From Straminergon stramineum (lineage: Eukaryota; Streptophyta; Bryopsida; Hypnales; Calliergonaceae), in assembly GCA_963920665.1 (NCBI GenBank), contig OY987268.1, positions 2,606,501 to 2,670,500 of the forward strand: a stretch of DNA of 64,000 bases. Reading direction: 5' to 3'. Within the stretch, counting starts at the first letter, position 1. Each line of letters opens with the position of its first letter. Positions 2,585-62,416 of this stretch are shown here, piece by piece. The notes under the pieces were generated by a model. That model saw only the letters and a program-made list of their open reading frames with translations, ran no database searches and was not told the origin of the DNA. The translations under genes and the position numbers were made by a program.

Positions 2585-3632
2585 ATGACGGAGGGAGATA
2601 TCCGGAAACCTTTAGTGACAGGGGGGATGGTTTGTCCAACCATTCTGGAAAGGTTGAGAGAGAGATCTTAGCTAGAGGATGATCTCAGTGAGATAGGGTG
2701 TGTCGGTTTGCTCTTACGGCCATGGACCGTAAAGAACGACCGGATGATACAAGAACTAATTGTAGGTGCTTCCAACTAGTACGAGTTGACAATGAGAGGG
2801 AGACCTGCAACCTGGACTGACAAAGTCTAGGCTAAGGTTTACGGATTCCCCCAAAAGGGATCCGGTTTAGCTTCCCGGATAGACAAGTTCACAGTCGGAA
2901 AGTTTAAGAACGCAACCCATTCTAAAGAAGGGTATGCAATTAGTGACTGCCTAAATGCAAGGCAGAGGCATGTCCTAGAGTTCCTCATCCCCATCCTCTA
3001 TCTGGAAAAGCCTACTTGGGTTACGGTTACGGTCACAAACACCATCTTTGGTGCTGTGGAGGGTAGGCTAGTGAATTGGGACAAGCTTATTGGAGCAGTA
3101 GTCTCCAAGCTTGCTGCTAATGTAGGGAAAATGAAGACCAGTCCCATAGGTCCGTATCTGTTTCACCTCTACCACTACACAGAGCTTTTAAGTGATGCGG
3201 AAATGGTAGAGTATAATACCGGATTGACCATCCTCCAATACGGCCTCACGGAAGAAGTGACGGCAGAGCAGCCACCAGTAGAGGAGGAAGAGGATCCGGA
3301 AGAAGAAGAACAACTCCTAGAGCGTAGGCGATAGAAGTCTACTGATCCGACGTCTCGGAGGAAGCTTCCGGCTCAACAAAAGATATTTGAGGAAGAAGAA
3401 GGTAGCATATCCGGATTCTTCAAGATTGGGTTCAACTGGGTACTACAAGTGCAAGAGTACCACGAAAACCTAGTGGATCTATTGAGGAGGATTAGCCGGG
3501 AGTTGAAGACGGAGCCAGAAGACATCCTCGACGTCTTGAAGAAACTTCCAAATCCGGAAGTATTAGAGAAGAAAGAGAAGCAGATTGAAGGCTTGGAGAA
3601 GGAAAAGGCGAACCTTCAAGCTCGACTAAGCT
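2585..3632 (+). pseudogene. Gag-like ORF, copy 2, truncated at an hAT end
   Basis: This is one reading frame from ATG 2585 to 3632 with four in-frame TAG codons, near 2669, 2778, 2828 and 3332. Aligned by eye, it parallels copy 3 throughout: DDLSEIGCVGLL versus EDLNSMGCLGFL, then VTVTNTIFGAVEGRLVNWDK versus VTISLANTIFGALRGDRKVDW, and GPYLFHLYHYTELLS versus CPYLMHLYHFHQLLS. The N-terminal domain is like plant retroelement ORF1 proteins and the C-terminus is a coiled coil. Coding homology stops at ANLQAR, where an hAT-type end (CAGGGTTGTT) begins. The TAGs replace Gln, Trp and Glu positions of copy 3, so this copy is dead rather than recoded. Confidence 0.65.
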
Positions 3633-4589: not shown

Positions 4590-7392
4590 CCAGGGCATTA
4601 CGGAAGGCTGCCAAAGACAAAAATCGCAAGCGTAGGGGCACTATTCATCAGAAGCGATTGCACGTGCTCAATAGTGAAGCCCACCTTGCTTTTAAGGGTT
4701 GGAATGAAGAACCAGAGCCTTGGACAATACAAACCTGCAAAGACTACATCGAGTGGTGCCACATCGGCAAGTTCTTTCCTTTATGGCGTCATCATTATAA
4801 TCGGCACACCAATAAGGCCAACTTGAAGTATTGTGAGAATCCAACATTCCTTCAAAGATGCATTGAATTGTGGCAAGTCCTCTACAAAACCGCCTTTGTA
4901 GAGAGGAATGAGGTCCCCCTCTTCCTTGCTAGAGGAGCATATGGTGAGGTCGCTCTAAACAAAGAGGTTGATTGGAGCACAATCAAGGGAAGTACATATG
5001 TCACTCGTCTAGAGAGTGGTTTCATCCCAAGAGGAGTTCTAGCCTTTCCAAAGGGGGGACTTGGTCCTATTCGAAGTGCATACAAAATACAAACCCCTGC
5101 CACTGAGGTTGACACTGAGGAGTCTGAAGAAGATGATGACTTTGATGGTACGCACGTCCATATGGTCATACGAATCATGGAGCAATCTATTTGCCCCAGT
5201 GAGGTTCAAAATGAAATTGTAGAAGGACTTGCGACATCCACAGGACAATGACCAAGGCAACCATCTAGAGTACGGCGTTCAATAACACGAGTGGGACCCG
5301 CATCGATTCCAACTATAGTTCCTAATCCATCGTTGCCAACACAACACACAAAGGACGTCTTCGACTATGGGCTCGATGAAGACACGGCTATGGAAGAAAC
5401 TGACCGTGTTTCCATTTCTCCATCAACAATGGGCTCAAGCAACGACATTATGACTTTAACAAAAGCTCTGGACCTCCTCAAGACCAAAGTTGTTGAAATT
5501 TCTTCACTACAGAATGAAATGAGGAAATTGCTATGTAAGTGTGAACACAAAAGTACACTCATCTCTCAACAAACTATAGAACTGCAACGCCTCCGTAAGA
5601 AAGACCATGACACTTTCACTTTGTCAGATATGGATGACGCCTTTGCTGAGCAAAACCTCCAAAATGTGGACAAGGTTGTGGGGGACCGTACCAACCATAT
5701 CCTTCAGCATTCTCCTCTTGCCAAGCGCACTAGACGCTCCCCCATCATTCCAAATACACTTCCTACTATTGTCACAAGATATACTACCAATGACACAATT
5801 GAATTGAATGGGACCCAAGACTCTCTTTCATTTCCTGTGGTTCCATCAATTATTCAATTGGAGAAAGACCATGGACTTCAAGAAGAAAATAAGATGATTT
5901 GAAGAAAGTTGGCTGAGTTGACTACCACATACTATCATTGGAAGGTCGCCTGCATTCTCTCCGTGGATAGATCCCAACAAGTTGCGAAGGAGCTAGAGAA
6001 AGTTTCTAGAAACTTTGTTGCAAATGCTCCTAAACATGAGAATGGACTGACGTCATGGGCATTGTTGGAGGACATGTTTCCCAGTAACATGTGCATGGTG
6101 GAATTGCCACAAAAGGAGGTCATAGATTGGAGCAAAAATGGTTGGGACCACAAAAACCAAATGTCTAGCCATATAGAAGAGAAGAAACGAATGCTCCTAT
6201 GGCCTAAGCCTACACCTTTTGTTTTGGACCATACCAAATGTCCCATATGTCTTGAACAATTTGGCCCCGAAGGAGGTTGGGCCATGGTTGTTCGGCCGAA
6301 CAACTCAACAACACGACGAACACAACGTCCAACATGTCTAGTAGACCCCCTTGTCCGTCTAATGAAGTCAACTTTAAGGTTGACTTTCAAATAAAACACT
6401 TTCTATTTCCAATCTTGACATATTTGAATTTCATTTTATTGAAATGTCTCAATTTAATAATCACTTATTACATTCTTAATTATGGATGGTAAATAAAATG
6501 AGATTTCAAATTATCTTTGCTGTTAGGATAAGGCTTTATTCGTCAAAATTGCCATGTATACACGACACTCGTCTTATACGACATGCGACATCATACAAAC
6601 AACTCGACACCCGAATCCCAAAATGTGTTCAACAGAACCCTAGGTTGGGCACTAGGATCTTGTACACATGTATACCAACCCCAATGTCTCATCACGTAGA
6701 GCTTGATTAGACGACGTTGTGTGATGTGTTCAGCACCATTCTATGATCTGCTGTATACCATGTTCAACTTGACAACCTACATGCCTCCTTCTTGAGAACA
6801 CACACGTGATACTACGGTTGACACAACCTTGTGGGGCCGAGATTTGGTTTGGAGTTGGCGAGAAGAACAACATGATCAAGAAAAAGGACCTGCTAGCTCA
6901 CAGTTGAATTGGGAAACAGACCCAGACGAAATTGCCAGGGTTGCACCGAGGCTCATGGGAAAGGGGCCACAAAACGAAGGGAGGAGGGCATTCTTCTTCC
7001 AATGCCTTGGTGGATATTGGGATAAGACCTCCTCAACCTTCAAGTGGGGTCCTCATACGCAACGACACCGTTGGAATTTAGAAGGACAAAGGGTAGCTAA
7101 TCAAGATGATAGTGCCTCCCTAGAAGACTTGACTAGTATGGCTTACCTCGACTCTACGTACGGACCATATTACCAAAGTCAAGCACTTGACTACTTGTTG
7201 GAAGCACATTCTCCGCAAACAACAAGGACCCTCCAAGCTCTACAGGACTCCAACGTGTTGCAATCAATTTTGAAGGCAGACAGACCAGCTACACGAACCC
7301 GTGCAAAGCGAAAGCTTGGGGTTGGGGAAGCATCGACCTACGAACAAGGTGAAGGAAGTGGCTCTCAAAACAACCCAAATGGCCAAATGTAA
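4590..7392 (+). pseudogene. Family X copy A: coiled-coil protein with RING-H2-like finger, split by an hAT MITE
   Basis: The same frame stays readable from about 4590 to 5251, 5902, 6282, then after the MITE (6283-6642 plus one 8-bp repeat) to 7392. It is broken by TGA at 5249 and 5900, and by TAG and TGA at about 6.69 and 6.79 kb. The N-terminal domain contains FKGWNEEPEPW and EWCHIGKFFPLWRHH, shared with copies B and C. A charged linker and a coiled coil (5.45-5.62 kb) follow. Then comes CPICLEQFGPEGGWA, which the MITE cuts. Joining across the duplication gives C-x2-C ... C-x-H ... C ... C-x2-C (CVMC), a RING-H2-like pattern with one ligand apparently mutated to Gln. The C-terminal domain (LVWSWREEQ, FKWGPHTQRHRWNLEG) is unrecognised. 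An E3-ligase role is inference. The GC array lies directly upstream. Confidence 0.6.
6283..6642 (+). mobile_element. hAT-type MITE, copy 1 (360 bp) with 8-bp TSD
   Basis: Starts CATGGTTGTTCGGCCGAACA and ends GTTCAACAGAACCCTA. It is flanked by a perfect 8-bp duplication, GGTTGGGC (6275-6282 and 6643-6650). Its inside matches the copies at 16.3 and 22.9 kb. An 8-bp target duplication with CAGGG-like ends is typical of hAT elements. It has no coding capacity of its own and interrupts the RING-like finger of family X copy A. Confidence 0.9.
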
Positions 7393-28115: not shown

Positions 28116-31100
28116 GATTGCAGTATAAAGCTGAAGGGCCGGACTTTGATTTTCACCTTGCTTCGGGGATGAACTCATGACTTGAATCTTCGAAAGAGGC
28201 TTCTTGCAGATGTTTGGTTCTTTGGAGGGCAACGACTTGGTTTAAGTGGTTTAAAAGACCGTTCAAAGCAAGTGGCTTTGCCATTCTTTTTTCTAAATCA
28301 AGGCTCTGATTCATATGATAATATTGTTTTAAGAACCCATAGGCAAGGGACAATATGGCTGGTCGGGGTGAGGGGAAGAGGACTACCATTAATGATACAA
28401 GGAGAGCCATGAAGGAGTGGGACCCTTGGTTGGTTGTAGACACTGACGGTCAATTTGCGGGAAATACATGAACATGTGTTTTTTGTAGGTGGACCTCCGT
28501 GTTTGTATAGAAGCGAGCATTCTGTCACTTTGGATTTGGTAGTAGGACTGCATCGGATCAATGTAAGAAAATCCCATGGGCAGTATTGCAAAAGTTTAGG
28601 ACTTGTCGTGGGGTTGTTTCGAAGGAAATGAGCTTTGAACAAATGCATGAGGAGGTTCCAGAATTTGATGTTGTGGATGAGACTGTGGTAGAGCCTATGT
28701 TTGAAGGGGGTAGGGAGAGGTCAGAGGAGCCTAGTGCTATGAATGAACCAATGCTTCCTAGTACAGATTCAGTAGATTCTACTCCTCAAACAATTTTGAG
28801 AAGAAGGAATAACCCTTCCATTTCTAGGCAAACTAACATGGATGAGGCATTACAAAATAGTATGAGAGCAAAGTTGGATACCATGTGGGCTTCCTTCTTT
28901 TATGAGGCTGGCATCACATTCAATGTTGCACGCCACCTTGCCTTTGTGAAAGCAATGAAAGAGACAGCAGCATTAGGACTACGATACCAATCGCCCTCAT
29001 ACAATGCTTTGTGTACAAGAATGATAGAGCCAAAGAAGGAAAGTGTTTCTAAAATGGTCACTGAGCGCACAAAGCACTCTATGGAAGTTTATGGAGCGAC
29101 TATTTGTTTGGATGGTTGGTCTGATACTAATAGCTGTCCATTATTGAATTTAATGCTCGTGTATCCTGCAGGGGATGTAATTCTTGAATCGGTGGACACC
29201 ACGGGGGAGAAAAAGGACATTGCGTATACAACGAATATGATGGCACAATACATAGAAGAGGTTGGCCCCAAAAACAATGTCCAACTATGTACAGATAATG
29301 CCGCTGTCATGACGGGGACTTTGAAGGCGTTATAAGAGAAATATCCTCACATGTATACATGAGGATGCACAGCACACATTTTGGACTTGCTTTTGGAAGA
29401 CTAGGCAAAAGATGGCAAGGTGAAGAAAGTAGTACTACGTTGTATGCAAATTGTAAAGTACATCAAGAAGTACCATTCCACATTGGCTCTCTTCTGGAAG
29501 TACTCCCCGGACAAGGCATTGCGAATGCCTTCTAAAACACGCTTTGCAGTGAACTTCCTCATGATATCACATGTGGTGGAGTGCAAGTCAGCGTTGATTC
29601 GAGTGATAATGGATGAGACATATGTACAATTTGAGGCTAATTTGGAACGTTGCAAAAATGGAGATATATTGAAAATGCGAGCCCATAAAGCGCGGGTGGA
29701 CATTCATTTGGAATCTTTTTGGGTGGAGTGTGATAATTTTTTGCACATGGTGGAGCTCGTCCTTATTGCTCTCCAAGTGTTTGATGGGAAAGCCCCAGCA
29801 ATGCCTAAGGCTTGGTTGGTTATGAAGACTCTTCAAGAGCATGTGAGGAGCTTGAGAAACAAACCTTTTTTTCTAAATGATGAAACTATGACAAAGTTTG
29901 AGAAGCATTTCGAGGCTCGTTGGAAATTGATGCTCACAAACCTACATTATGCAAGGGCACTCTTAAATCCTTTCTTGATTGAAGTAGGAACCCTTCGTAA
30001 GGACGGTGTGGCCAAAAGAGCCTTAAATCGGGTACTTCGAAAAATGAATGAGTCATTGGGACTATCATACATGGAGGCACTACTAGAGCTTACGCAGTTC
30101 AAAGAGAAGATAGGCCCTTTTGACCCCTTAGAAGAAGCTCCTGATATTACACAGTGTAAACTAATGCCTCATCAATGGTGGAATCTTGTAGGTGCTAATG
30201 TTCTCCCAAAAATTGCAATGAGAGTTCTATCTTTGACGTGCTCAGCATCATCATGTGAAAGGAATTGGAGCATGTATTTGTTTGTGTACAATAAAGTGCA
30301 AAATTGCCTAACCACATCCAAGGCAGAAACATTGGTGTATATCTACACCAACAGTAAACTTGAATGTGAGAAACGTGGACGCAATCCTGCAATGTTCTAC
30401 GAAAAATACCTTGTGGATGGAAATAGCTCGGAAGAGAATGAGGAGCCGTTAGCTGTAGGATCCTCAGGGAATGGTGACCCAGTCAGAATGGCTCGAGCTG
30501 ATGAGAACGTTAGGCTAATAGAAGAGCACCTACGTGGAAATATGTGGGTAGGAATGCAGGATTGATTCGTAGAGAAGACAGTCCTCCACGGAGGCACAAC
30601 TATGGAAACCCATTTACAACTGAGAATAATAGGTACTACTTTGAGGAGGAGGAGGTTCAACATGCACCGCGAAGGCCCCTGCAACTCTACTTCTCTGCTA
30701 GGGATAGGAATGTACCTCCTCCAATAAATTCATCGCCGACGAGGGCAAGTACTCCCGACAATCCCAATGAAGGCATAAATAATCCAATGCCAACAAGAGC
30801 TGAGGAAGCAAGATCTCCAAATATTGTAGATCAGGGTTCTATAAGGGTAATGAACCTACGAAGTGTTGCTCGAGTTGCTAAGGTAAATGAAAGGCAAGAG
30901 GAGGCAACACCGCCAATACACATTGAAGGTGTAGTGCATACAAGCAGTCCACTTTCTCCATTACGAACCCCTTAAGAATAGAAAATGTAGAATATGATTC
31001 AGATTTGCCCTTGCAAGCTGTTATGAACAGGAATCGTATTGTGCCCTTAAGTGGAGGAGGAAACGCAAACAATGCTAGGGCGACTAGGTCTATACCTAGT

Positions 31101-48513: not shown

Positions 48514-48523
48514 GTGTGTGCTG
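48514..48523 (+). repeat. Target-site duplication, left (GTGTGTGCTG)
   Basis: Identical to 62,407-62,416. A 10-bp duplication fits the 8-11 bp range of Mutator-like elements, and the MITE at 41.1 kb also has 10 bp. Confidence 0.88.
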
Positions 48524-49189
48524 CAATGACGCTAGCGTGTGAGCTTAGAGCCGTGAGCCTGTGAGCTGTGAGCATGGAGTATGTGAGCCTAGAGCCTCCA
48601 AAACTTTTTGGGGGCAATTTTTTGCCCCCAAATATTTTTTGATAATTTTTTTTCCCAAAATAGACAAAATTTTCCTATTTTAAGTGAATATTGTGACCTA
48701 TGACCGTGTCCCCTAAAACCGTGGACTCTGGAATGAGTTATTTTTTATTCTTCTAAAATTGCCTATTACTATAGGAAAGGAGTGTCAAATTTTATTGGAA
48801 AGTTGTAGCACTTAGTTCAATGATTACAATGGGAAATATGCTAGACGGTTTCAGTATTATAAGTAGATGCCATTTGGACACAACTTAGTTGTGTTGTTTT
48901 CACTATCTAATTTGAATACATAGGATTTGGTGTCTGAATATCCTAGAACAATTGGGATTTTTCATGTGAGTTTGTATAAGTGCATATCTGTAGGGTGAAT
49001 AGAAAACCTCAAGGTTTCGATGAAATGATGAGTAGAAGCCATGGTGGATTTAAGGTCGGCATTTGACTGGAATCGTTAGTTTTGGTGGTTTACATATTTA
49101 CAATTATAAAATTCATTTCTCTTCATAATTGTAAGAACTGCCAAAATGTTGACATCCTCTCCCAAATTATAGAGAATGGAGAAGATAAA

Positions 49190-49400
49190 CGAAATGTGAA
49201 AAGGAAAAAAAAAGAGGAATCCAAGGAATGAGGAAAGGGAAAAAATGGAGAAAGAAAAAAATGGGAAAAGGAAAAAAATGGGGAAAGAAGGGAGAAATGG
49301 AAAAAGGGAAAAAAAGGGAAAAGGAAAAAAAATTGGGAAAAGGAAACTCGGGACAGAGAAATAAAATAAAAACATAAATGAAAAAAATGGGAAAATAAAT
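49190..49400 (+). repeat. Polypurine tract
   Basis: About 200 bp is almost purely A and G on the plus strand, in imperfect GGGAAAAAGGAAAAAAATGG units. It lies just beyond the 3' end of the transposase gene. A 126-codon frame on the other strand is a composition artefact. Confidence 0.85.
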
Positions 49401-49630
49401 GGGAACACATTGGAAGTAAAAAGACTATGAAGACGTTTTGAAACTAGGAAAAACACTTGGAAATATAGTCATTTCTATGAATTAGCAACAACGCACTTCA
49501 CTTATGAAACATGCTTCTTTAAATAAGAAATGAATTAACATTTTCCCTCTGTATACTACAAATGATTTCAGTCACAATATATGCAAATGAATACTATGTA
49601 ATTGAAGTACGTGGATAAATGTAGACATGT

Positions 49631-52600
49631 CTATTCTGGAACTGTAATGATTCCTGCTCGAACTAGGAGTACCTTCAGTTCATTGAAGCTATAACTAGGT
49701 GCATGCATGAACTTGTCTTCATAGATGTCCATCTTGCAGAAGTACCTATACAAATAGTATAGGTGTTTGCAATTCACATATTGCTGTCGACCTCCAATAG
49801 CTGAAACAACCATATTTACAAAGTCTGGGCATGTGCACGTGGGGAACATACCCAGTGTAATTCAATAGATGTTTTTGTTAGGGTCTATCCCTGTCTCAAG
49901 CGCCACTATTGCACCAAGGCCTGGAAAGGGGAGCAAGGTGACTCCTACTATTTGTCCTTTAACGTTTGCTGCACTTTCCCACTTGTTCCGTTGTTCCGTA
50001 GTTGTGCATTAGCTATCCTCCGAATGGTTCGATTGTTCCTAACCGTTGGATATGCATCCGGGTTCTTGGGCGTTGGTTGGTCATATGATACAGTCTGGAA
50101 AACTTTCGACATGGTGAACAGTCGCCGTGGGGACAATGTCGGCCTTTCCTGAAGGTAAAAGCCTGCATGTTGTAGCAGCAGAGTCTCCTCCCTATTGAGG
50201 TTGGTCCCACTGAGAACGGGCCACACCTCTGGTACCTCAAGCCAATCAATGACCCACTTCCTTTTTGTACCCTTTACACATCGTTCAATGTCATCCCAAC
50301 AGAACCAGAAGTCGACCACCACCTCCCGCTTGCTCCTATAATCTTCTTTTCGGCCCCGATAGGTTGGAGCCGTTGTTCCCTTCCTTCCCCTTGCAATTTT
50401 GGAGGCGCACCTGATGTTGGTGGTCCGCTGTTGAGCATGGCATTTTGCATTGGACTTGTGGCTGATCCTAGCAATGTGCCACTTGGAGGTGTCACAATCA
50501 CTTTCAAATGTCGTTGTGACATGTTTAGGGATCTGGGTTTGAGGTTGTTCACTTGGGCCCTCCAAAGATTGAAGAGAAGCCGTTGTGGACCTGGTTCTCA
50601 CATGCGGCTGAGAGAAGTTCACTTTGTCCGGTCTATGTGAATCTCCGGCATCACCGATGGGTATGTCCAACTTCCTCTTCGTGCTCCCAAAGATTTCCTC
50701 TCCTTCCAAGTGTGGTATTCTTGTTCCCACCCCCTCTACTCCAGGCAATGTGTTCAACGCTTCTGCGATTTTCTTGGGACATCCACTTCTTCTCGCAGCT
50801 CTGAGTTTGAGCTCCCCCTTGGACGGCCCTGATCCAAATGCATGTCCTCTGAGGTATGTGCGGTAGTTGGTCATTTGCATCCATGCACGAATGCTGTCAT
50901 CGCAAGTTGCGTCGAAGAGGTTGTTTCCTCGCTTTCCCGACATTTGAAGCCATTTGTTGTGAACCGTTTCAGACAAATTGCAGAAAGGTAGGTCGGTCAT
51001 CTCTTCCAAACTCAATTTCTACAAATCCATCCATCCATAACACATGAGTGAGGACATCCAATTTCATATTCCAGGGTTAATAGCCCATGTGATCATTCCG
51101 GACTGATTGCAAATGTATGAACCTCATTTGCTTACACACCACGATGTTCGTGAATGTAAAAATATGAAAGAGATTCTTCTCTCTACGAATGAGCACGAGA
51201 TGGGACGTCTACCAGGGAGGAAAAAGACTAACATGAGTTTCTGAAGAGGGGGTCTAAGAGCTCCTTTTTGAGTGGGAGTCCTTCAAAAAAGAGTAACATG
51301 TGGGAGCCTAGAACCTTCAGTCGGATCCGACTAAGGTCTAGGTGCCCTATCCTTGAACCCCCCATTTGGGTCCCCCCTCACATGCTCATCAATAATTTCG
51401 TAAAAGTTAAAAGTAATTCCTACTCGAATATTCTCAATCAAAGTCTCGACATACATGCCTCTAAGTTTGGAGGGTACACATCTATTCTTCAACAATCGCT
51501 TTAGATAGAGGAGGATAGATACTTCAAAATCAACTTAGGAGGTCACTTACCATAGTCATGAAGCCTTCCCAAAGTAGGTATCGGAAATGCCAGAAGTCTA
51601 GCCAGTGGTCCAAGTGATGAAGATCTTCTTCACTTGCAGCACCCAACGACAACCACCAGGATCGAATTGCGAGGTACCGCGTCTCTGCTTCTTCGAGAGT
51701 CTTGGATTCTTTGCATTGTTTGCAGAGGATAATGTGTTGTTGTTGAAATGCTTCTTTGATGTGCTTCTGGGTATGCTTGTGGAGCGAACTACTCCAATGC
51801 AGCAAACACGTTCTCTCGCGATTCTCCATTTTCTCATTGGGCGACCCACTTCCGTAGACAATCCGTGCCGCATTCCAATTGGCCATCGCGCTATCTACCA
51901 TGAATCCTTTGAAGTTGGTGTGCTCCACTCCGTGTCTTGCCATGACTGTATTTAGAGATCTCCAAAATTGAACTTGGATCTCCGTGTTCTCCGATTGCAT
52001 GTCACAGGTGGCCACGGTCATCACTTTTTTGTACTCCACATCGTACACGTGGCATGCCATGGTGCTCCACTCGTTGACGCGTCTGACGTGGTCAAACATT
52101 ATCCATGCGTTTTGTAAATCCCCTCCTGGTTGCATTCGTTTGATAAGGTCCACTCCACTTCCGGGTCCTTCTGTGAGCATTTTGAAGAGGTAGACCTTCT
52201 CCCTTCCCTGTCCTGGGAAGACACTGTCATGTATGAACTCAAACTTTGACTCTTTCTTCATTGTCATGATGTTGTCAATGACCCCTCCCTTGTTGTTGGA
52301 GCGAAATGATGAAATCACATTCCTAATGTTCGGACTGCTAAGATATTGGAATCGATCCATCACTTCCTCTAGTTCCTCTCCCTTCAACATCTCTTTCTCC
52401 CCTTCACCATTGTGAAACAAATAGTTCGTGAGGAACTCTTTGCTGGCGGAGAGCGCAATTGCAGAGTTGGTGGCCGTGGGTGTTTTGGCCACCTGTTGCG
52501 CAATGAGTCCTGAGATTTTCTCTGCGAAGTCTCTATACACACCCTTGGCTACAGGGTGCGCATGATCTCCGAAGTGTATAGCGGCCCTAGTCATTTTTTC

Positions 52601-53710
52601 ATTCTCGCAATATATGTAGTATATTCTAGCATCACATGTATTCAAGCACAAGGGGGGGCTCTTGCAAACTTTGCATACTAGAGTACAATCATTGGGAGGA
52701 CTCCCCCCTTTAGTAAAAGGACAGATCGTGTAACCGGTCCACTCTGTTTCATTCATTTTGGAAGCCCTCTTTACATAATCGCAATCAAGATTTTGGCAAG
52801 CAAGGTGTCCAACGCAGTATGACTTACGAAACTTGAGGTTGTCGGAGTTGTGAATGTTCGTGGTCATCAGCTTACACCACGGGTGTCCGTCGTACCGCCT
52901 ATCCATTCCCTCGAGGTTCTTGGCCGCCGAGGACGAGGCTGCAGATTGACACGGAGGCAATTCGAAGATGACGTTGCCGTTGAAATGTGTAGGCAAGTAT
53001 TGCACACGATGGTGTTTCACGGTGTCAAGATCCATGTTGGATAGTTCATTCCGAGAATGCCGGACATTCGCCAGTCTCTTCAAGCACTCCATTATACTGA
53101 CTTGGTGAGTCGGAGATGGGGGCACTGGAGGATGTGACAGTAGGGATGGGGTTGGACTATTGGAGGGGGTGTTTAGTTCTGAGTGTGTAGAAGCCTTTTC
53201 CCTCGACTCAAAAGGGATTGGGCGTTGTTGCTTTTCAAGCATCACATTAGGTGACTCGCCTTCCGATTCACTCGACAATTCTACGATGGATTCTAATTTC
53301 TCTACCTTGACTGAGCGTAGAATTGTATTGCCGGTTAGCACTGGGGAGACTACACGAGGTGGACTGGGTGACACCTTGCGTGCAACATATGGCATGTCGA
53401 CTGTGGAGTTATCCGACTGTCGACTCCAAATTTCCGTTGAAACCCCAAGCATGGAGAGCGGAAGACCATAAGCCCTATAGTTCCCGGGAGCTAGGTACCA
53501 GCAATGGCCATCTCCATCTAGACTCTTGACAACCGAAATGGATTGCACCAATTCACCTGACTGGGACAACTTTTCCTCTTCAATGTAGATGGAGGACTCT
53601 ACAAATCGAAATCGAACGTGTAGGAGGTGACTCATGACTTTGGCACGTTCTCCCTCGACTACAGGAAACACCAGTGGAACATCTTGACCATGCACTCGCA
53701 CACAAGCCAT
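49631..53710 (-). CDS. Mutator-like transposase with N-terminal zinc-binding domain and SWIM finger (near-intact)
   Basis: Exon 1 (53,710-51,551) is open for about 720 codons and ends at a good donor (ATG/GTAAGT). Exon 2 starts at 51,018 after TTTGTAG and continues in phase (KLSLEEMTDL). The N-terminal half holds a Cys/His region (YCVGHLACQNLDC, CKVCKSPPLCLNTC, HFGDHAHPV) resembling WRKY-GCM1/FLYWCH-type fingers. A core like MULE transposases follows, with candidate acidic residues in MFDHVRRVNEW, DMQSENTE and GFMVDSAMANWNAAR, then CLLHW (the C-x2-H seen after the DDE core). Near 49.85 kb CTCPDF...CKHLYYLY fits the SWIM pattern CxCx(n)CxH. Before it the frame changes once near 49.95 kb and a TGA interrupts NIY/ITLG. 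The first exon's integrity suggests recent activity. Confidence 0.75.
51243..51390. repeat. Fold-back element in the transposase intron
   Basis: The perfect palindrome AGTCGGATCCGACT (51,319-51,332) is flanked by CCTAGAACCTT and AAGGTCTAGG (one bulge) and further GGGGGTC/GACCCCCC-like outer words. Its centre is the same as in the fold-back at 56.58 kb. It lies inside the intron of the transposase. Confidence 0.7.
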
Positions 53711-54339
53711 CCTCACAAAGCAGGGTCAGGAGGTGGTGGAATTCTGACGGGTTTAGGGTCTTTCAAAACAGTGAAGGCAACCAAATTTTAGTGGCCTTAT
53801 GTATATTCTATTTTCATGAAAGTGAAATTTAGGTGAGCAATTAATAAATTGCAGTAGGTGTGTTAATTTTTCACCTTAATGGAGCAAGAGAATCCACCCC
53901 CATAGGAAACCGTAATTTGTGCACCGCCATCTCAAGTTCCATTTATTATGTGTTGGGGACTGTGGACGCACCGAAACGGCTTGAGCATTGAATTCCAACC
54001 GTCCTCTCAAAACATGCTCGAGCTGTCGCCCCTCGACATTGGAAGTTGGGCAAAATTAATTTTTGTGTGTGGTCTTAAAACCTCTAGTTTCATTTAATTG
54101 CCCTTTCCCAGCGCATTCAAAGGTGTACAATGAAGTGGAGTAAACGTCCTTGACGGCTGCGGGCAGAAATTATTTAATGCAATTCACATCCTAATGTCCC
54201 ATGCCTAGGGAAAATTGTAGAAGACCTTGGACCATTTGACAAGTCTATTGTGGCATCATACTTGATCCAGTTTTAGTTTGTTTGTTTCACATACCTTGTG
54301 TAGAGGAGAGGGAGGCTGTATTTCAACTTCATTCACCCC
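53711..54339. promoter_or_regulatory. Divergent intergenic region between transposase and cargo genes
   Basis: This 630-bp non-coding segment lies between the minus-strand transposase start and the plus-strand ORF at 54,340, so it probably holds promoters for both. No clear TATA box was identified on either strand; this is inference from gene layout. Confidence 0.4.
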
Positions 54340-54641
54340 ATGTTTGTGAACACGCGGAGAGTGGAGCCTAAGTTGATTGACGTGAGGAGTAGAAAGAGGC
54401 GTCGTAGTTTTTATTTCTCATCTTCTAAGGCTCTCAAGAAGTCCAGGATGAACAAGAAGAAGGTAGTGTCCAAGGTTTCTCAGTCCACCCTTGGAGACTT
54501 GAGGAAGTTCCTTCGCTTCGGTGGAGGAAGTAATGTAAAAGAAGAAGGCATTGTACCGAAGAATGCTATTCTAAGTCATGAAATGCCACAGGAGTCTGGA
54601 GGTGTCCAAAACCAAGACGGAGACAATTGCATCGCCACTGT
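54340..54641 (+). CDS. Basic Lys/Arg-rich ORF, possible first exon of the cargo gene
   Basis: The frame begins ATGTTTGTGAACACGC and encodes VRSRKRRRSFYFSSSKALKK and MNKKKVVSKVSQSTLGDLRK followed by FLRF. It is strongly basic and suggests a nuclear protein. It ends at DNCIAT, followed by a canonical donor GTGAGT (54,642). QSTLGDLRKF only weakly resembles a PCNA-binding box and lacks its aromatic pair. No matching acceptor was fixed, so joining it to downstream exons is inference. Confidence 0.45.
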
Positions 54642-54719
54642 GAGTATTTCAGTCATTTCTTGTATTTATGTTATTCACTCTCATCTGTTTTTTGTGGTCC
54701 TATATGTAAGAGAGTGATA

Positions 54720-56300
54720 GGATTCCAATAATCAAAGGGTCAAATATGTATGTCAAATCAAATGATTGGAGTTGTCTAACAAAAGATTTTGAAGAATACA
54801 ATCCTAGTTGGACCTCAAATTAGAAAGAGGTCACTGAGATATGTTGGGATGGAATTAGAGAGAGAGAGAGGAGTAGACGAATAGGACTAGGAATTTAGAA
54901 AGTTTAACTACACCCAAATCAACAAGTTCTCCACGAAATTTCCTCTAAATACTTCCTCATGCCATCAAGGACCACAGATGAAATTGTCAATTGGATTGTC
55001 TCATATCCACCACCGCTCGTAGAAGGGGTTCACGGGAATTAATCCAAGGTTCATTTTAAGAAGAATAATTCAAATTTAGCATTGAGATCATGAAGATGTG
55101 AAGTAGAAACCTAGAGAAATTCACCCAAATCGCATATGGTCGCGGCCACTGCGTGAGGCGGACACATTCTCTCTCTACCTCTCGATTACCCCGTGAACGA
55201 CAAAGCATGGCACGCCTTCATTGTGGCACATGGTCGCAATGCCAATAGTTCACCACTTCGACACGACGAGAGCACCATGTTTCGCTACCCATCATGGCCT
55301 CTTCCACTAGGCCAATTCATGATCACACAAACCCAAATAGAGATCGGTTCTTGTTGAAGCGAATGGACTTTCGAAATTGAAATGCAGGTTGAGGCAAAAA
55401 TAATGGACGGAGGGTGGACCACCACGAATTTACCTTCTTCACTGCTGGCCTCCTAAAGTATCCGAATTCAAACCTCCACACCTTGTCATCAACTGGCTCG
55501 CCGTGTGAAACTAAATACAGCACCCAAGACTTGAGCACCCGATGGGTGACGAAGCCTGCCTGGGACAGCAGAATGCACACTGCGATGGCCTTTAGAAAAG
55601 ACTTTAGATCCCAAATTCAGAACAAAGACATACTGGATTTAATTGATCAGTAGTTTCGTAGTCTTTGGTCCCCGGTGTTCGGACACCCTGGACTTAATGT
55701 TTGGTATTTCAGTTTGCCCTCCACTTCACTGTATTTTTTTTCTTTGCCTGGGGTAATTCGAAGGGGCCCTGAGCCCGAGCCTAGTCGCGGGCGGCCATAA
55801 CAGTAACTGGTGGCCTTCACAGGAACTGGTGGCCTTACTGCAACTAGCGGCCTTACAGCAACTCCCTCGCCGCCACCCTTTGCGGGGTCACCTCGCCGCG
55901 CCCTTTACGGAATCCGAAATTTAGAAGATTCCTTCTTCCTCTCCCCACATGCCCAAGACACTTGTTCACTGATCACCTTCACTGGACATCGAGGGTCTCG
56001 GCCATCTCCTACACCAATCTTCAATACTTACAGCAAATTCAAATATCCGCGAGCTTGTGGTCCTTAGCATCAAGATTGCAAAAATTTGGTACTTCAGTCA
56101 CAAATTTGATCTGGTGATGAATGCACAGAGGGAGGAAGCATTGCTCCAGACAAGGACCACGCAAAGCCGCGCAAAGGATGCAAACAGGCAAGAAGTGGAG
56201 AGCTCCACACCACAACCTCAAAATCTCGCCAGCATTCGCAAGGTACACATCTTACGCAATCCTACAACTATTCTGATAAGGCTTGATTCATCTCACACTC
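54720..56300. other. Non-coding or captured sequence inside the large transposon
   Basis: The segment has several open frames. The least random is on minus at 55,580-55,323 (LSQAGFVTHRVLKSWVLYLV, then FEFGYFRRPAVKK/GTAAAT), which could be an exon of a captured host gene. I do not recognise it. A GC-rich block follows from 55.75 kb. A short GA microsatellite occurs near 54,857. Confidence 0.35.
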
Positions 56301-56301
56301 T

Positions 56302-56880
56302 TGAGAGTCACTGCAAGCTCACCACACGGGTGCTCAGCCCAGCACGCGACGGGCGCGAGGCTCGCGGTGGGCGCGGCCGGCCTCTTGGTGACCCGCATTT
56401 TGACTGTGCATGGCGTCCTCGCTGTTGGATTCTTCCAAGCCTGTGTGTCTGGCTCCTAGGCCGCATTGGCGTGCCCAGGGCCACTAGGATTCTCGGTGAC
56501 TGAGTGGACTGTGAATTTGTACTTGAGAAAAAAAGGGTCCCACTTTGAGGGGGTCAAGCCCAGAGTCCCGAAGGCCAAGTCGGATCCGACTAATCCCTGG
56601 AAGGTCTCGGCTCGACCCCCTCAAAGTGGGACCCCTGACTATTTGTTGCCTTTCATGAGAGTCACCGCAAGCTCACCATGCGGGTGCTCAACCCAGCACG
56701 CGACGGGCGCGAGGCTCGCGGTGGGCGCGACCGGCCTCTTGGTGACCTGCTTTTGACTGTGCGTGGCATCCTCACTGTTGGATTCTTCCAAACCTGTGTG
56801 TCTAGCTCCTAGGCCGCACTGGCGCGCCCAGGGCCACTAGGATTCTCCGTGACTGAGTGCACTGTGAATTCGCACTTGAG
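56302..56880. repeat. Tandem repeat, about 215-bp GC-rich unit x 2 plus a partial
   Basis: Unit 1 (about 56,302-56,525) and unit 2 (about 56,657-56,878) both run from GAGAGTCACYGCAAGCTCAC through GCACGCGACGGGCGCGAGGC to GTGACTGAGTG and ACTTGAG. They have few differences. A third unit starts at about 56,877 and breaks off. A fold-back element sits between units 1 and 2. Confidence 0.85.
56535..56634. repeat. 100-bp fold-back element with 21-bp perfect arms
   Basis: The arm at 56,535-56,555 (starting GGGTCCCACTTTGAGG) is the exact reverse complement of 56,614-56,634. The centre is the perfect palindrome AGTCGGATCCGACT (56,578-56,591). It splits the tandem repeat at ACTTGAG. No certain target duplication was seen. 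Confidence 0.85.
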
Positions 56881-57127
56881 AGTCACCGCAAGGTCACGAT
56901 GCGGCTGTATATGCGCGAGTTCGTCCCTTGACCAGCTCTTTATCAGACCAAAATATTTATCCCTTCTGTTTGCTTCAGTATTTTTGGCCTATTGGTTTTT
57001 TGTCGTACTTCTAAGTGTATGCCTTGACAGTTTGTTCGGAATCTGTGAAATTCTTGGAATTGATTGTTTTTGGTTTTGCCTTTGAATCTAGGGATTCGGT
57101 GGATAGAGTAGTGTACCATCCACCTTG

Positions 57128-57553
57128 ATGGAGCCAATGGTGCCAATTGGTGCTGGAGTTGATGGAGAGAAGTCTGAGCCAAAGACTCCTCTAGATTTGG
57201 ATGTCGACATATCGAGTGAATCCGAGGACGAGGATGGAGAGGACTTGGTAAGGACTCAAGACTCTAAAATCCCGGCTTGTCCTCCTGTAGGTGCTTCCAT
57301 GGACACCATGCTCAGTCGCAACACCGACTGGCCCGGCCACCTCATAGCAGGATATTCTCGAAAGCGCAGGCACCCGGAATTTTCCCCCGAGAGTTCAGAG
57401 ACCGAGTACAGCTCGGAGCCTGAGATCTCCATGTCCATTAATAGCCCTTTGTTAGAAATGTGTGATTTTAGTGATAGTTTGGGGTTGATTAGAGAGGTGA
57501 TCATTCTCTTGAGCTCGGACTCAGAGAGTGATGTGGAGATTTTAGAGGGTTGA
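57128..57553 (+). CDS. Acidic Ser-rich ORF with a SUMO-interaction-like motif
   Basis: ATG 57,128 to TGA 57,551-57,553, 141 codons. It is preceded by a good acceptor (GAATCTAG near 57,090), so it may be a separate exon or a short leader gene. The product is acidic and Ser-rich, with an internal basic patch (YSRKRRHPEF). It ends with VIILLSSDSESDVEI, a hydrophobic cluster followed by acidic and serine residues, the pattern of SUMO-interacting motifs. It lies 230 bp upstream of the methyltransferase-like gene. A joining splice in phase could not be identified. Confidence 0.45.
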   Translation: MEPMVPIGAGVDGEKSEPKTPLDLDVDISSESEDEDGEDLVRTQDSKIPACPPVGASMDTMLSRNTDWPGHLIAGYSRKRRHPEFSPESSETEYSSEPEISMSINSPLLEMCDFSDSLGLIREVIILLSSDSESDVEILEG

Positions 57554-57783
57554 GTGCACTCTATTCAAATATATACTTTTTTATATATGATGGTCGTGGC
57601 GGGTTACATTTGAGTGGACTTGTTTTGGCAGAACTACCTTCATATTAATCACAAGTGTTTCTTGGGTTCTTGTTTGAAGTAAAGCATTGACATGATTGTG
57701 TATTTCAATTTTTAAATTTGTCCTGAACCATTCTATTCGATCCATGACAAGTGTGTCATATTCTTCTGCCGTTGCCTTGACAG

Positions 57784-60700
57784 ATGGATGTCTCGCCAGT
57801 GAATGAAACTCAAGAAGAGAGAGTTGTTCAAACTCCGGGGACCGATGATACTACTCAACCAGAAATCGGAGGGGAGGAAGAAGGGCATGCAATGGAGATG
57901 GATGTCGTGGATGACAAGGAGAAAGACCTGTTAGAAGATGACCTCCGAAAGCTACAGAAAGTGGACTCCATATCCACTATCAATTCACTGAGGATGAAGC
58001 CGGAAAACATGTTCCGGTTTCCGATTCCACTTTGCCGCCTTGTAGCCATGCCTATGGTGAGGCCTACACTTTCGTGTGATGTGCAATTTCTTGAGCAAGA
58101 GTTTGCATGTGGATACTGTGATGGGGCAGCAGTCTTGTACGTTTCCACCACAAATGAGGCGGGCGAGACGTCACAGTTCACAGCGGAGGAGATGGATGAG
58201 TGGGACCCTCTGTGGAAGGAAAAGAATGCTACCTTCGAGGAGTACGTGGATTTACATCCCGCTCTCAAGTTCCTCAAGAACTTGAAGTTCTTCGTTTGCG
58301 ATGGAAACCACCGACGCTTGGCCTGGATGAACGTCATCTCCAAAATGTATTCCACGAATCCTGAGTGGCACTATGCAGTGGATTGCATTCTTCTGGACAC
58401 CAAAGGCAAAATCGAGATTGTCATACAGGTCATGCACGACATCAACAAGTATGTTCACTAATCCCACTGGTCATTCATATGGAGTTTGATTCCATCTTAT
58501 GCCTCATGAGAATTGAATTACTCACAAGATTGTTTTCTTCTCACTACGCAGATCTACAGAGGACTCCCACGTGAAACAAACTTGGTACACACGTTGTACC
58601 AGGTGCAAAAGTATGGGCTGCTTCCCATGGAAAGGTTCAACGACATGCTCAGGCCATCAGAGAGGAAACAATGTGCTGCGCTGCTACCGAGAAAGACATG
58701 GTACTCTATGCCAGCGGAGGTCTTCACCTCATTTGTCTTTAGGGTAAGAGAAACATTCTCTACATGAATGAATTGTATCATTTTCTATTGTTTTAGTTTC
58801 AAGTGAATCATTGATTTAAGATCCTCGTGTATTTCCAACAAGAGATTGCGCAGGTGGCAGATGCAGCGCTCCAAAGATACCATGAGACCACACCGATGGA
58901 GGAAAAGACAGTAGAAGGGGCGGCTCAGGCCATGAGGGTAGGGGCCAAGGAGAAGAACATGAAGCTCTACGTCAAGATGATCAAATTCCTCACAGTGGCC
59001 AATCCCGCTCATGGGGCGGGCTTCCTTGAAGAAGTAAGTTCAAATGTTCTGTAAATCATGCAATGATTTACTGAAATCTTTTTCTTCACTTACACATATG
59101 ACACATTTCATTTTGGCTGGTGTAGGTTGAGAGACATTGGAGCTCTAACGAGGTGCCAGAGATGACACTTGAGAAATTGCAAATGGTGGCCACCTGCAAC
59201 ACAACAGCAGAGCACAAGACCAAATTCCTGCAGTGGTGGAACTCCTCCATTCCATCGCGGGATGCGAGGAAGTTCCCAGCCAGGCCTGTCTCCGAAACAC
59301 ACCTCGGGCCTTTCTTGAACAAATGTGTTTGGTTTGCAGGGGTAAGTGCCTCACTCAAATTGATTTGTTGAATGGTACTATTTCGTAGAGGCTATCGACC
59401 ATGAGATAGGTCAATTTGTAATTTGTCTTTAATCTCCATGATGGAATGAAAATAGTACTTACTCTTGTCCACTTGTACAGGTCGAGGATGAAGTAGTGGA
59501 GTACTTCGAAGCTGTTGTCAAACAGGACAACATCAAGATCAATATGAATGTCCCACTACAGCCGGAGACATTGTAAGAGTACATTGAAGGATGGAAGAGG
59601 AAGATCTGGGACCACGGATTCCATCCCTATCTTAAAGGAGGAAACTACATCAAGAAGGGGGACTCCTTCTTGAATTCCGAGGGGTCTAACTTGGTGGTTA
59701 GGAGGATCCTCTATTGGTATGTTTGTGTTGTCCACATTATTCTTTGATTTTCAAAATGGTCTTCCAGTCAGATGACAGAGTATGCCTCGTTCTTCATTCT
59801 CTACATACCTCTATTGATTGTTTCTTCTTCTCTCCAGCTACTTCAAGTATGAACTTGAAGCAAAGGGTGCCATCGAAAGGAAGGACCTGCCTCCCTTCCT
59901 CGCGTCATGGTTGGACCGCAGCTCAGAGGACTGCATGTTCTCAGCAAACCAGTTGCGCACATTCACCATGGCTCACCTCAGTGGAGGAGCGTGGTACTTG
60001 GATTGCGCACCAGCATTCACTCATCCATCAGAGCTGCAGCTACGGGCATCTTTGGATGGCAAGGGCGCCATCAATTTGGATGTGGATGAGTTTGCAGGAA
60101 TGACAGACAGGCAAAGGAGGAAGGCCATCGCGAGGAGGGAAGCCAATGACCGAAAAAAGGAGGCCCGGTTCCAAGTCCTTCTCACCGCCAAGGAGAAGAA
60201 GGAAGCGGAGAGACTTGCCAAGCTCGCGGAGAAGGAGAAAGACAAGGACAAGGACAAGGAAGAGAAGGCCAAGACAAAAGGCAAGAAGAAGGTCGAGGCG
60301 GGAGGCCAAGTTCCAGCTTCACCAATGATGGATCAAGGCTCAGAGATGCAAGTTGGATCGCAGAGTGGAGTGAAGACGAAGGCCACTCTCTCTCAACTCA
60401 CGGAAGAGGCCATCACTCATGTGACCAAAGCGATTGTCCTCACTGAAGACGAGCTCTCAAAGTCTGAGAATCTCATTCTCAACATCTCTATTGACGACCT
60501 GGTCGATGACATGGAGTCCAAGAGAAAGACATGCTACAGAGAAGTCTTGGACTTCTTCAACAAGGTGTGCGGTTTTATTTAAATTTAAAAATGTGGATCT
60601 AGGTTCTCATTGAAATTATTGTAGTCTGAGTTTATTTATCATCATATTTGGATGCACTATTTCTTTGCAGGTGTCGGCGGGAAAAGCCACCATGTTCCAT

Positions 60701-62052
60701 GGTGTCCCTACAGCTAGGCCAAGGGTGGATGTCATGTTCTTTGACTGTCCGGAGAACTTGCCTGTGCCGGGGGTGTCTTCTCTGCCAGAGGAGGTGCCGG
60801 ATTGGAATGAGGACGTGGGAGATGAGGCTCTGCAATCAGCATTCAGCTTTGCTTCCAATCATCTCCAAGAGCACGGTTGCATCATTGTATTTCATTCGTG
60901 GAGTGCCAAAGCAAAGTCGGATATTGGAGGATTGTGTGAAACTTACGATATGCTAAAGAAGAAGGAGTGGATGGGGATGAACCGCATGCACTTGACCTCA
61001 GCTATAGACAAAACAAAGACGGTAATTTTCATTCTCTTTCTCCAATTTTTAAAAGAAATTCATAATGAATTACATTCTTCTCATTTCTCATAATTCTATA
61101 CCTGTCTTGGATGCTTGTGTAGATGCAAAAGTTTGGAATCACCCTTGTAGTGAAGGACTTAGGCACAAAAAGGAAATCCAATTTCTCTTTCAAACGCACG
61201 ACCACGATGGTCAAGGCTGGTGTCGACATTGCACGGGACGACATGGTCATGAACTACACCCACCCGGATGACATGGCCATGAATGACAGAAAGCCTTGGC
61301 GGGGCTCGCGAAAAAGATCCAAGGTTCTTCCAAATCCTCCTTGAAGCTACGAGCGTCAAAGGAGATGTGATTCTTGACTGCACCGCATCCACAGGTCAGG
61401 ATTCAATTCATTCACTCTACCATCTCTAGGTTTCGTTGTAATCATTCTACCGATTTCATTTCTCAACGAATGTACTTGAATGTCCTTGCCTCCAGGTGCA
61501 TCCATTATTGCTTGTCATGGAACGGGCCGCCACATTGTGGCCTTGGAGGAGCACAAGGACATTTTCGATGCCATCCTGAAACCCATGTAGAAGTCCACCC
61601 CGGCGAAGGTGGTGACACCTCCCCCACCGCCAAGTGCAGTTTCTTAGGATCCGGATGAAATGCTCGTAGTGCCTCGAAAATTCACTCGGAAGGGAAAATT
61701 TAGTAAGTAAGTTGGAACTCTTTTAATTTTTTCTTTCTATGGTGACGTCCACGTAACAAAACTCTAACATGGTGCCTTTTTTCTTTGCAGTCGTCTAGGA
61801 TTGATGTTAGCAGATGCTAGCATGAAGAAACAAAGTCTTCTATTCAGTTCGGAGAAGACTTACACCCTTCCTCTTTATGCACAACAGATGGCAACGGCCT
61901 TTGCGGATTTCGGTTGCTCCAAACGACAACGCCGTAAAGACACTTATGCTCTAAATGTCTTACAGTTCATAGATGGATCTGCGTCTGAGGGTAGAAAGTC
62001 TTCCAGCTTGTCAGATACATCAGATTCCTTGACCGAGTCCACAACCTCTTAG
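57784..62052 (+). CDS. ParB-like domain fused to a beta-class DNA methyltransferase-like domain (ten exons, damaged)
   Basis: Exons read from phase and GT-AG sites: 57,784-58,448; 58,562-58,743; 58,821-59,033; 59,126-59,341; 59,481-59,716; 59,838-60,564; 60,671-61,021; 61,122-61,394; 61,496-about 61,708; about 61,791-62,052 (roughly 1,100 codons). Exon 1 holds a ParB/sulfiredoxin-like region ending FFVCDGNHRRLAW. Exon 6 has a long Lys/Glu coiled coil. Exon 7 has VDVMFFDCPENLP, aligned with the DPPY/SPPY catalytic motif IV, then a strand ending GCIIVFHSW. Exons 8-9 give VILDCTASTGASIIACHGTG followed by RHIVALE, the SAM-binding motif I (FxGxG-like). The order IV before I is that of beta-class N4/N6 methylases. 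Motif IV has lost PPY, so catalysis is doubtful. Damage: TAA 59,574, a 2-nt loss near 61,300, TAG 61,588 and 61,645. Confidence 0.72.
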
Positions 62053-62340
62053 ACTCATGAGATTGACATATCTCATGTATCATGCTATTGTTTGTTGATT
62101 GGTATTGTGATTGGATTTGTGTGTTTTATGGCTATATCTTCAATGTGCATTATCCTCATTTTTATTTTTTATTGCATGAATTTCATCTATTTTGAATACA
62201 TTTTGTTATGGGAAAATCCTACATCCAAAAACCCATGGAAGAGCCCCAAACTTTTAAAAAAAAATCTTCCTTCTCCATGCACTTTTTCGTTTCTTATGTC
62301 CACGGTCATAGGTCCCTCAGACATTTTTCCTTGACCCTAC

Positions 62341-62406
62341 CCTTCCCGCTTACAGGCTCACAGGCTCACAGGCTCATGCTCACAAGCTCACATGCTAGCA
62401 ACCCTA
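62341..62406 (-). repeat. Right terminal inverted repeat of the 13.9-kb element
   Basis: Tandem GGCTCACA words lead into CATGCTAGCAACCCTA. The reverse complement pairs with the left terminus at 48,524-48,590, which has TGTGAGC/GTGAGCC repeats. The second copy at 40,150-40,194 ends the same way. Confidence 0.82.
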
Positions 62407-62416
62407 GTGTGTGCTG
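62407..62416 (+). repeat. Target-site duplication, right (GTGTGTGCTG)
   Basis: Exact copy of 48,514-48,523. Confidence 0.88.

Follow-up and report, generated by a model that had tools for sequence, protein, structure and literature searches.

The 64,000-nt stretch of Straminergon stramineum DNA analysed here (the window, part of contig OY987268.1) contains a DNA transposon of 13.9 kb at positions 48524-62406, in which a transposase gene on the minus strand stands head to head with a ten-exon gene on the plus strand, whose predicted product ends in a DNA methyltransferase-like domain. We suggest that this is probably a decayed copy of a high-copy family of the autonomous type, the second gene of which would encode a methyltransferase-like protein of about 1.1 thousand residues that binds the DNA of the element. 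The joint recurrence of both genes between the same ends supports the conclusion that the methyltransferase-like gene belongs to the element, and both genes are under purifying selection.

A transposon with two opposed genes

The element is flanked by a perfect 10-bp repeat, GTGTGTGCTG, read directly at 48514-48523 and 62407-62416 (both on the plus strand). The related inverted ends which, together with this duplication, had been proposed in an earlier note made from the window sequence take the form of a left arm at 48531-48566 (plus strand, 36 nt) that is 81% complementary to a right arm at 62364-62399 (minus strand). Each end also carries an array of GTGAGC, counted five times in the 100 bases at 48524-48623 (plus strand) and four times, as GCTCAC on the plus strand, in those at 62307-62406 (minus strand). 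Across seven copies there are 4-5 such motifs in the left 100 bases and 2-4 in the right, with 5-15 (either strand) in the rest of each element and 17 in the 50,117 bases of the window outside it.

For comparison, the plus-strand gene was retrieved, together with its surroundings, in ten more copies from the genome (326 Mb, 59 contigs). Both ends and most of the interior are common to the window and six of the ten; these six full copies are 88.8-93.1% identical to the window in pieces longer than 3 kb, and element length in the six measured copies is 13.5-14.3 kb. A stretch near 55.4-56.9 kb aligns merely in short pieces (72-86%) in C5_176, C2_73 and C6_163, and about 0.37 kb of extra sequence is inserted in C3_125. 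At the same termini, perfect duplications spanning 10-12 shared bases flank five of the six other full copies, and the sixth (C2_73) has no target-site duplication. The remaining four copies form a different subfamily, and in two of these the left half is for the most part absent or without a match. The termini are sharp: at the left end (eight loci including the window) identity falls from 0.97 over the outermost 40 bases of the element to 0.27 over the 40 bases beyond it, and at the right end (ten loci including the window, with the end position set by the terminal motif) it is 0.92 in the 30 bases inside and 0.28 outside. We conclude that 48524-62406 is a real DNA transposon. A host gene cluster or satellite duplicated in some other way, with ends and duplication arising by chance, would account for the high copy number and nothing else; it is refuted by the full copies with precise shared termini, unrelated flanks and duplications of their own, and we give it virtually no chance.

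Four genome searches were scored, with exon 1 of the ten-exon gene (best 150 of 829 candidates), exon 1 of the transposase (best 62 of 1294), the 200 bp of the left end (best 40 of 413 first-look candidates, 93-100% identical) and the right end (best 40 of 302 first-look candidates, 75-100% identical). The co-occurrence counts are lower bounds, because the best candidates alone were scored for each query. At 39 of the 62 transposase places a ten-exon gene lies head to head within 2-9 kb, against 0 and 0 for the same-strand and tail-to-tail controls. The ten-exon gene lies inward of 26 of the 40 right ends (control 0) and of 27 of the 40 left ends (control 2); the transposase lies inward of 17 left ends (control 0), and for 12 of the 40 left ends a right end was scored at a distance of 13.3-16.8 kb (outward control 0). 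Further to that, of the 30 best among the 150 scored exon 1 places, 25 are accompanied on the proper side by a scored end (22 right, 13 left, 10 both), and right ends on the wrong side number 0 among these 30. Most of the best-scoring gene copies thus come with an end of the element; among the scored copies, the case that would have refuted the earlier note, a methyltransferase-like gene located mostly outside such ends, does not arise, and the note was right to place both genes inside it, as they are in the six full copies. The family is large (at least 150 gene places and at least 62 transposase places), which would give population, expression and methylation tests power.

The plus-strand gene begins with exon 1 at 57784-58448, defined by the genome search and the exon model. 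Comparison of copies places the other exons, all on the plus strand, at 58552-58743, 58854-59033, 59126-59341, 59481-59716, 59838-60564 (exon 6, with a highly charged stretch), 60671-61021 (exon 7, in which profiles also place the start of the methyltransferase-like domain), 61123-61394, 61496-61706 and 61791-62052 (exon 10 and stop). Earlier ends of exon 1 at 58428 and of exon 9 at 61702 were replaced after this comparison. In the window all nine introns have GT-AG borders, and exon lengths agree across the ten other copies, with indels in multiples of three except for the losses in the window itself and one large deletion, in C1_472; some splice borders have decayed among the ten. When internal stops are ignored, nine of ten copies encode a protein of 1,101-1,104 amino acids (aa). 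Six more divergent copies are also compatible with the model; the border of exon 3 may shift, since five of these six have no AG at its aligned start, and a few other borders have decayed. The window copy is a pseudogene: exon 2 is one base and exon 8 two bases shorter than in all ten other copies, exon 5 has an in-frame TAA and exon 9 has two in-frame TAGs.

The transposase consists of two exons on the minus strand (53710-51551 and 51018-49631) and 1,182 aa. Exon 1 (720 codons) is open in the window and contains D540, D606 and C635-x2-H, picked by eye; exon 2, defined by the copy comparison, contains E737, also picked by eye, and near its end a SWIM-like zinc finger of the pattern CxC...CxH (49763-49837, minus strand). 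The nearly intact transposase of the earlier note stands to this extent, but exon 2 of the window is one base short near 50005 (the base is present in eight of eight other copies) and has one in-frame TGA, and the window element is thus broken in both genes. The SWIM finger is less firm: PF04434 (SWIM) is the sole Pfam match of the finger piece from other copies, with E-values (E) of 0.045 and 0.18, below the cut-off, and against the window's own finger piece it gives E 1.8. Pfam gave no family for the whole transposase of one copy.

The earlier note had also called the element Mutator-like. A DDE triad with C-x2-H serves as a criterion for Mutator-like elements (MULEs). The D-D/D-E spacing, for residues picked by eye, is 66/131 compared with 67/132 in a Pfam-detected MULE of the same genome. 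With this catalytic spacing, the SWIM-like finger and a duplication of 10 bp (10-12 shared bases in other copies), which falls in the 8-11 bp range given for MULEs in PMC6446971, the family resembles the MuDR/MULE superfamily; the label is plausible because of the duplication length, the spacing and the weak SWIM match. Unlike MuDR/MULE, the family has no match to the MULE profile PF10551 in the transposase of the window or of other copies, which leaves the label without profile support, and none of the 26 places found by a genome search with PF10551 overlaps the 62 scored transposase places (compared by eye). It likewise lacks profile similarity to a genomic MULE, the profile-profile comparison with one of these scoring within shuffles. 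The terminal inverted repeats measure 36 nt at 81%; those of MULEs are often long and in some absent. We suggest that the transposase may be a divergent MULE.

The methyltransferase-like domain and the N-terminal region

Profiles and a phage alignment identify the C-terminal 245 residues of the ten-exon protein as the methyltransferase-like domain. PF01555 matches six of six family members (best E 2.5e-4, the member displayed being below the Pfam cut-off), and several PHROG methyltransferases also match all six (best E 6.1e-6). The window's own read-through protein gives E 0.13 against PF01555, and its separate exons gave no profile match. The methylase of Enterococcus phage 9184 aligns from motif IV to the end with a score of 48.0, whereas 30 shuffles reached no more than 18.6, and in this alignment GVDLVFFDCPEN faces KVDMVLTDPPYG. 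Escherichia phage phi92 gives a weaker alignment across that span (score 31.2, probability 28%), and Staphylococcus phage Twillingate, taken alone, aligns partially (columns 89-237). A comparison with solved structures returned no convincing relative (DpnA methyltransferase, E 1.1, at the motif I end only), and no relative was confirmed among the 146 and 436 pattern matches that alignments A3 and A2, respectively, produced in scans of viral contigs.

The position of motif IV, DVMFFDCPEN (60728-60757, plus strand), aligns with the DPPY of the phage methyltransferase and precedes motif I (DCTASTG), the first part of which lies at 61370-61394 (plus strand) with an intron following within the motif region. 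This order and the domain-wide similarity are those of the phage and bacterial beta-class N6/N4 DNA methyltransferases, from which the moss family differs by DCPEN in place of DPPY, by a long N-terminal region fused to the domain and by its introns. Motif I is kept as DC[TS]ASTG in most copies. The beta-class catalytic motif is (D/N/S)PP(Y/F/W), a pattern that DCPEN does not fit; the window has DCPEN, and the aligned copies have DCPEN, DCPKN, DCLEN, DCSEN or DYPEN.

The N-terminal part is less clear. Of the earlier ParB/methylase-like label, the exons and, at the level of the family, the methyltransferase domain hold, but the ParB half goes back to a motif picked out by eye, FFVCDGNHRRLAWM (58288-58329, plus strand), which is largely conserved in alignment A3 of the copies but gains no support from profiles. 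Among six members, two match DUF1015 (best E 0.026) and one matches phrog_1033, a ParB-like family (E 0.093); DUF1015 may be grouped with ParB-like folds. With the ParB-like part as query, comparison with phage P1 ParB gave no signal, a plasmid search no match, and a phage search one match, to a hypothetical protein (E 6). An AlphaFold model of exon 1 alone had a mean pLDDT of 39.5, too poor to be of use. A ParB-like N-terminal part is therefore possible, on the by-eye motif and weak hints.

Selection, cytosine methylation and the role of the second protein

Ratios of non-synonymous to synonymous substitution (dN/dS) were obtained by a plain pairwise count, to which cytosine decay adds noise. 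For the ten-exon gene (nine copies, leaving out C1_472 with its large deletion in exon 6) dN/dS is 0.15 between subfamilies (18 pairs) and 0.26 within the window's subfamily (15 pairs), the within-subfamily values including neutral decay after insertion. Between subfamilies, the ParB-like part gives 0.10, the two methyltransferase parts 0.12 and 0.18, and the tail 0.34. For the transposase (leaving out C1_472 and C2_257, in which the left half is missing or partial) the values are 0.20 between and 0.22 within. Both genes are under purifying selection, which in the case of the ten-exon gene is what cargo useful to the element would be expected to show. Beyond annotation, these tests make the methyltransferase-like protein a maintained part of a eukaryotic DNA transposon. 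Capture of host genes by transposons is frequent according to a review (PMC13317346), and the ten-exon gene could have been a passenger of this kind, functionless for the element as in Pack-MULEs; the low between-subfamily dN/dS, the conserved ten-exon structure and length, and the existence of exon 1 relatives down to 67% identity (among the best 150 of 829) make this very improbable. As a class for the element itself, Pack-MULE was ruled out, as the element holds its own transposase.

Private transitions were counted in the seven full copies, leaving out columns with two or more deviating copies. They number 226 at 500 CG sites (0.45 per site) and 134 at 395 CHG sites (0.34), compared with 237 at 3,317 CHH sites (0.07) and 171 at 6,514 A/T sites (0.026); transversions are even across the site classes (0.026-0.035). 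By its distribution over site classes, the transition excess at CG and CHG is the mark of cytosine methylation after insertion.

We suggest that the working unit of the family pairs a transposase of the DDE type, bearing a SWIM-like finger, with a methyltransferase-like protein encoded on the opposite strand, and that the latter would be a function of the element and not a passenger. The protein may bind element DNA, perhaps at the GTGAGC arrays of both ends, and may mark it (N6A/N4C) or else read DNA or S-adenosylmethionine (AdoMet) through the methyltransferase fold, reading being considered because motif IV is DCPEN. The most likely outcome would be to choose or protect the element's own copies in a transposition burst, before host methylation sets in.

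Several results weigh against this reading. No scored end accompanies five of the 30 best gene places, and 23 of the 62 transposase places are without a scored partner within 2-9 kb. The ten-exon gene is interrupted by one or more internal stops in all ten first copies and in five of the six more divergent ones, the sixth being open through all ten exons; many of these stop codons are probably due to cytosine-methylation decay. The aromatic residue of DPPY has no counterpart in motif IV, and the protein may therefore no longer be catalytic. A whole-genome search with PF01555 gave 23 weak matches, none over the cut-off; one of the six members also matches DHBP_synthase (E 0.0026), and Pfam returned no ParB match for the N-terminal region. 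The CG/CHG decay, finally, speaks against an easy anti-silencing story: it indicates that host silencing wins eventually, and the stage of the young copy is outside its reach.

An anti-silencing role would nevertheless have a precedent. According to PMC5735166 and PMC10398659, VANC of the Arabidopsis VANDAL transposons acts in sequence-specific anti-silencing via short motifs in non-coding repeats, and PMC6446971 describes VANDAL MULE transposases as carrying SWIM. The moss family has in common with these elements a SWIM or SWIM-like transposase, degenerate terminal repeats and an extra protein, which for the moss family would likewise act on the epigenetic state of its element; for VANC the effect is demonstrated, whereas the protein described here has a methyltransferase-like domain and a putative effect. 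We take the functional parallel as a lead only. By analogy, the second protein could recognise the DNA of its own family and prevent or remove host 5-methylcytosine, via N6-methyladenine or N4-methylcytosine or by occupancy, and the GTGAGC arrays at both ends and the selection on the ten-exon gene are consistent with this. Against it stand the CG/CHG decay, as expected of silenced DNA, and the fact that the arrays are equally likely to be transposase sites; we hold this role to be possible, if somewhat unlikely.

A structural accessory, with functions such as end binding, synapsis, nuclear targeting or copy recognition and with the methyltransferase fold as a DNA-binding scaffold, would fit the altered motif IV (DCPEN or near variants) of all aligned copies and the tight coupling with the transposase. 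However, motif I is near its cofactor-binding form, which a mere scaffold would not need, and we can propose this alternative only tentatively. What we prefer is still a protein that binds, and marks or reads, the DNA of its own element.

Known relatives and further features

The closest described parallel is algal. PMC12477816 reports, for the 21.5-kb Sola1-1_Ec32 of Ectocarpus, a 1104-aa protein with ParB-like and N4/N6 DNA methyltransferase domains opposite the transposase, cites green and red algal relatives (Iyer 2011, Petroll 2025), and puts forward the idea that proteins of this sort bind the transposon that encodes them and mark it. Common to that element and the moss family are a giant DNA transposon, an accessory gene opposite the transposase and an N4/N6 methyltransferase domain; the protein lengths are also alike (1104 aa in Ectocarpus, 1,101-1,104 aa in nine of ten copies here, with internal stops ignored). 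The moss protein thus shares the features of the algal accessory proteins, namely a gene on the strand facing the transposase within a DNA transposon, a length of about 1.1 thousand residues and a methyltransferase domain. Unlike Sola1-1_Ec32 as described there, the moss element is 13.5-14.3 kb long and has a 10-bp duplication, a SWIM-like finger and a transposase with MULE spacing; its ParB-like domain is putative, its motif is DCPEN, and it adds direct evidence of selection to what that text gives for the Ectocarpus case. The earlier note held such a cargo to be undescribed for plant transposons. In literature searched by title, no plant ParB-methyltransferase transposon was among the matches listed, but the kind of cargo is not new, because the Ectocarpus protein has been reported and the proposal is already in print for algae (PMC12477816). 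The moss family extends this algal pattern to a land plant with CG/CHG methylation, and makes it possible to test whether DNA-marking domains borrowed from prokaryotes help transposons to control how they are silenced.

A third open reading frame (ORF) of 141 aa, recognised by frame conservation, lies upstream of the ten-exon gene at 57128-57553 (plus strand) and may be a separate gene or a 5' exon. Its frame is kept in nine of the ten other copies, four of these with an internal stop, and its ATG is missing in the four copies of the other subfamily. Between subfamilies its dN/dS is 0.14 (C11_42, with an 8-base deletion, left out), at a synonymous divergence (dS) of 1.55, which is near saturation. 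The predicted product is acidic, with two stretches, DVDISSESED and EVIILLSSDSESDVEIL, and a similar one, IVELSSESEGES, occurs in the window transposase; we take all three to be SUMO-interaction-like motifs. MULEs elsewhere carry SUMO-protease-like (ULP1) genes according to PMC13317346, so that a SUMO link may recur. The boldest version of our proposal would make this the first land-plant transposon to rely on three conserved genes (transposase, acidic protein and methyltransferase-like protein), with a methyltransferase fold of remodelled catalytic motif (DCPEN) recognising the element's own DNA and counteracting or timing host cytosine methylation, in an anti-silencing system of separate origin from VANC. 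We consider it unlikely in this full form.

Between subfamilies, dS is 0.23 for the transposase and 0.60 for the ten-exon gene, compared with the 1.55 of the upstream ORF (partly different copy sets), and between the genes, at 54646-57163, identity to the other subfamily falls from about 87% to 76%. The difference in dS between the halves and the drop in identity suggest that subfamilies have exchanged halves of the element. In the same part of the element, a stretch at 56299-56881 is duplicated or inverted in several copies and holds a 100-base palindrome (56535-56634, with arms of 50 nt that are 78% complementary).

The flank of one scored right end (L015, G000:C3:26932916) resembles, by eye, exon 1 of the ten-exon gene, which suggests that one element was inserted into another. 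Many of the 23 PF01555 matches (e.g. G000:C6:905593-905712) end near the motif I region of the profile, where the family has an intron, and these weak places may belong to further divergent families with a similar gene. Elsewhere in the window, pieces of a hAT-type transposase are present at 28511-30565 (plus strand), with matches to DUF659 (E 8.5e-21) and the hAT dimerisation domain (E 3.9e-7).

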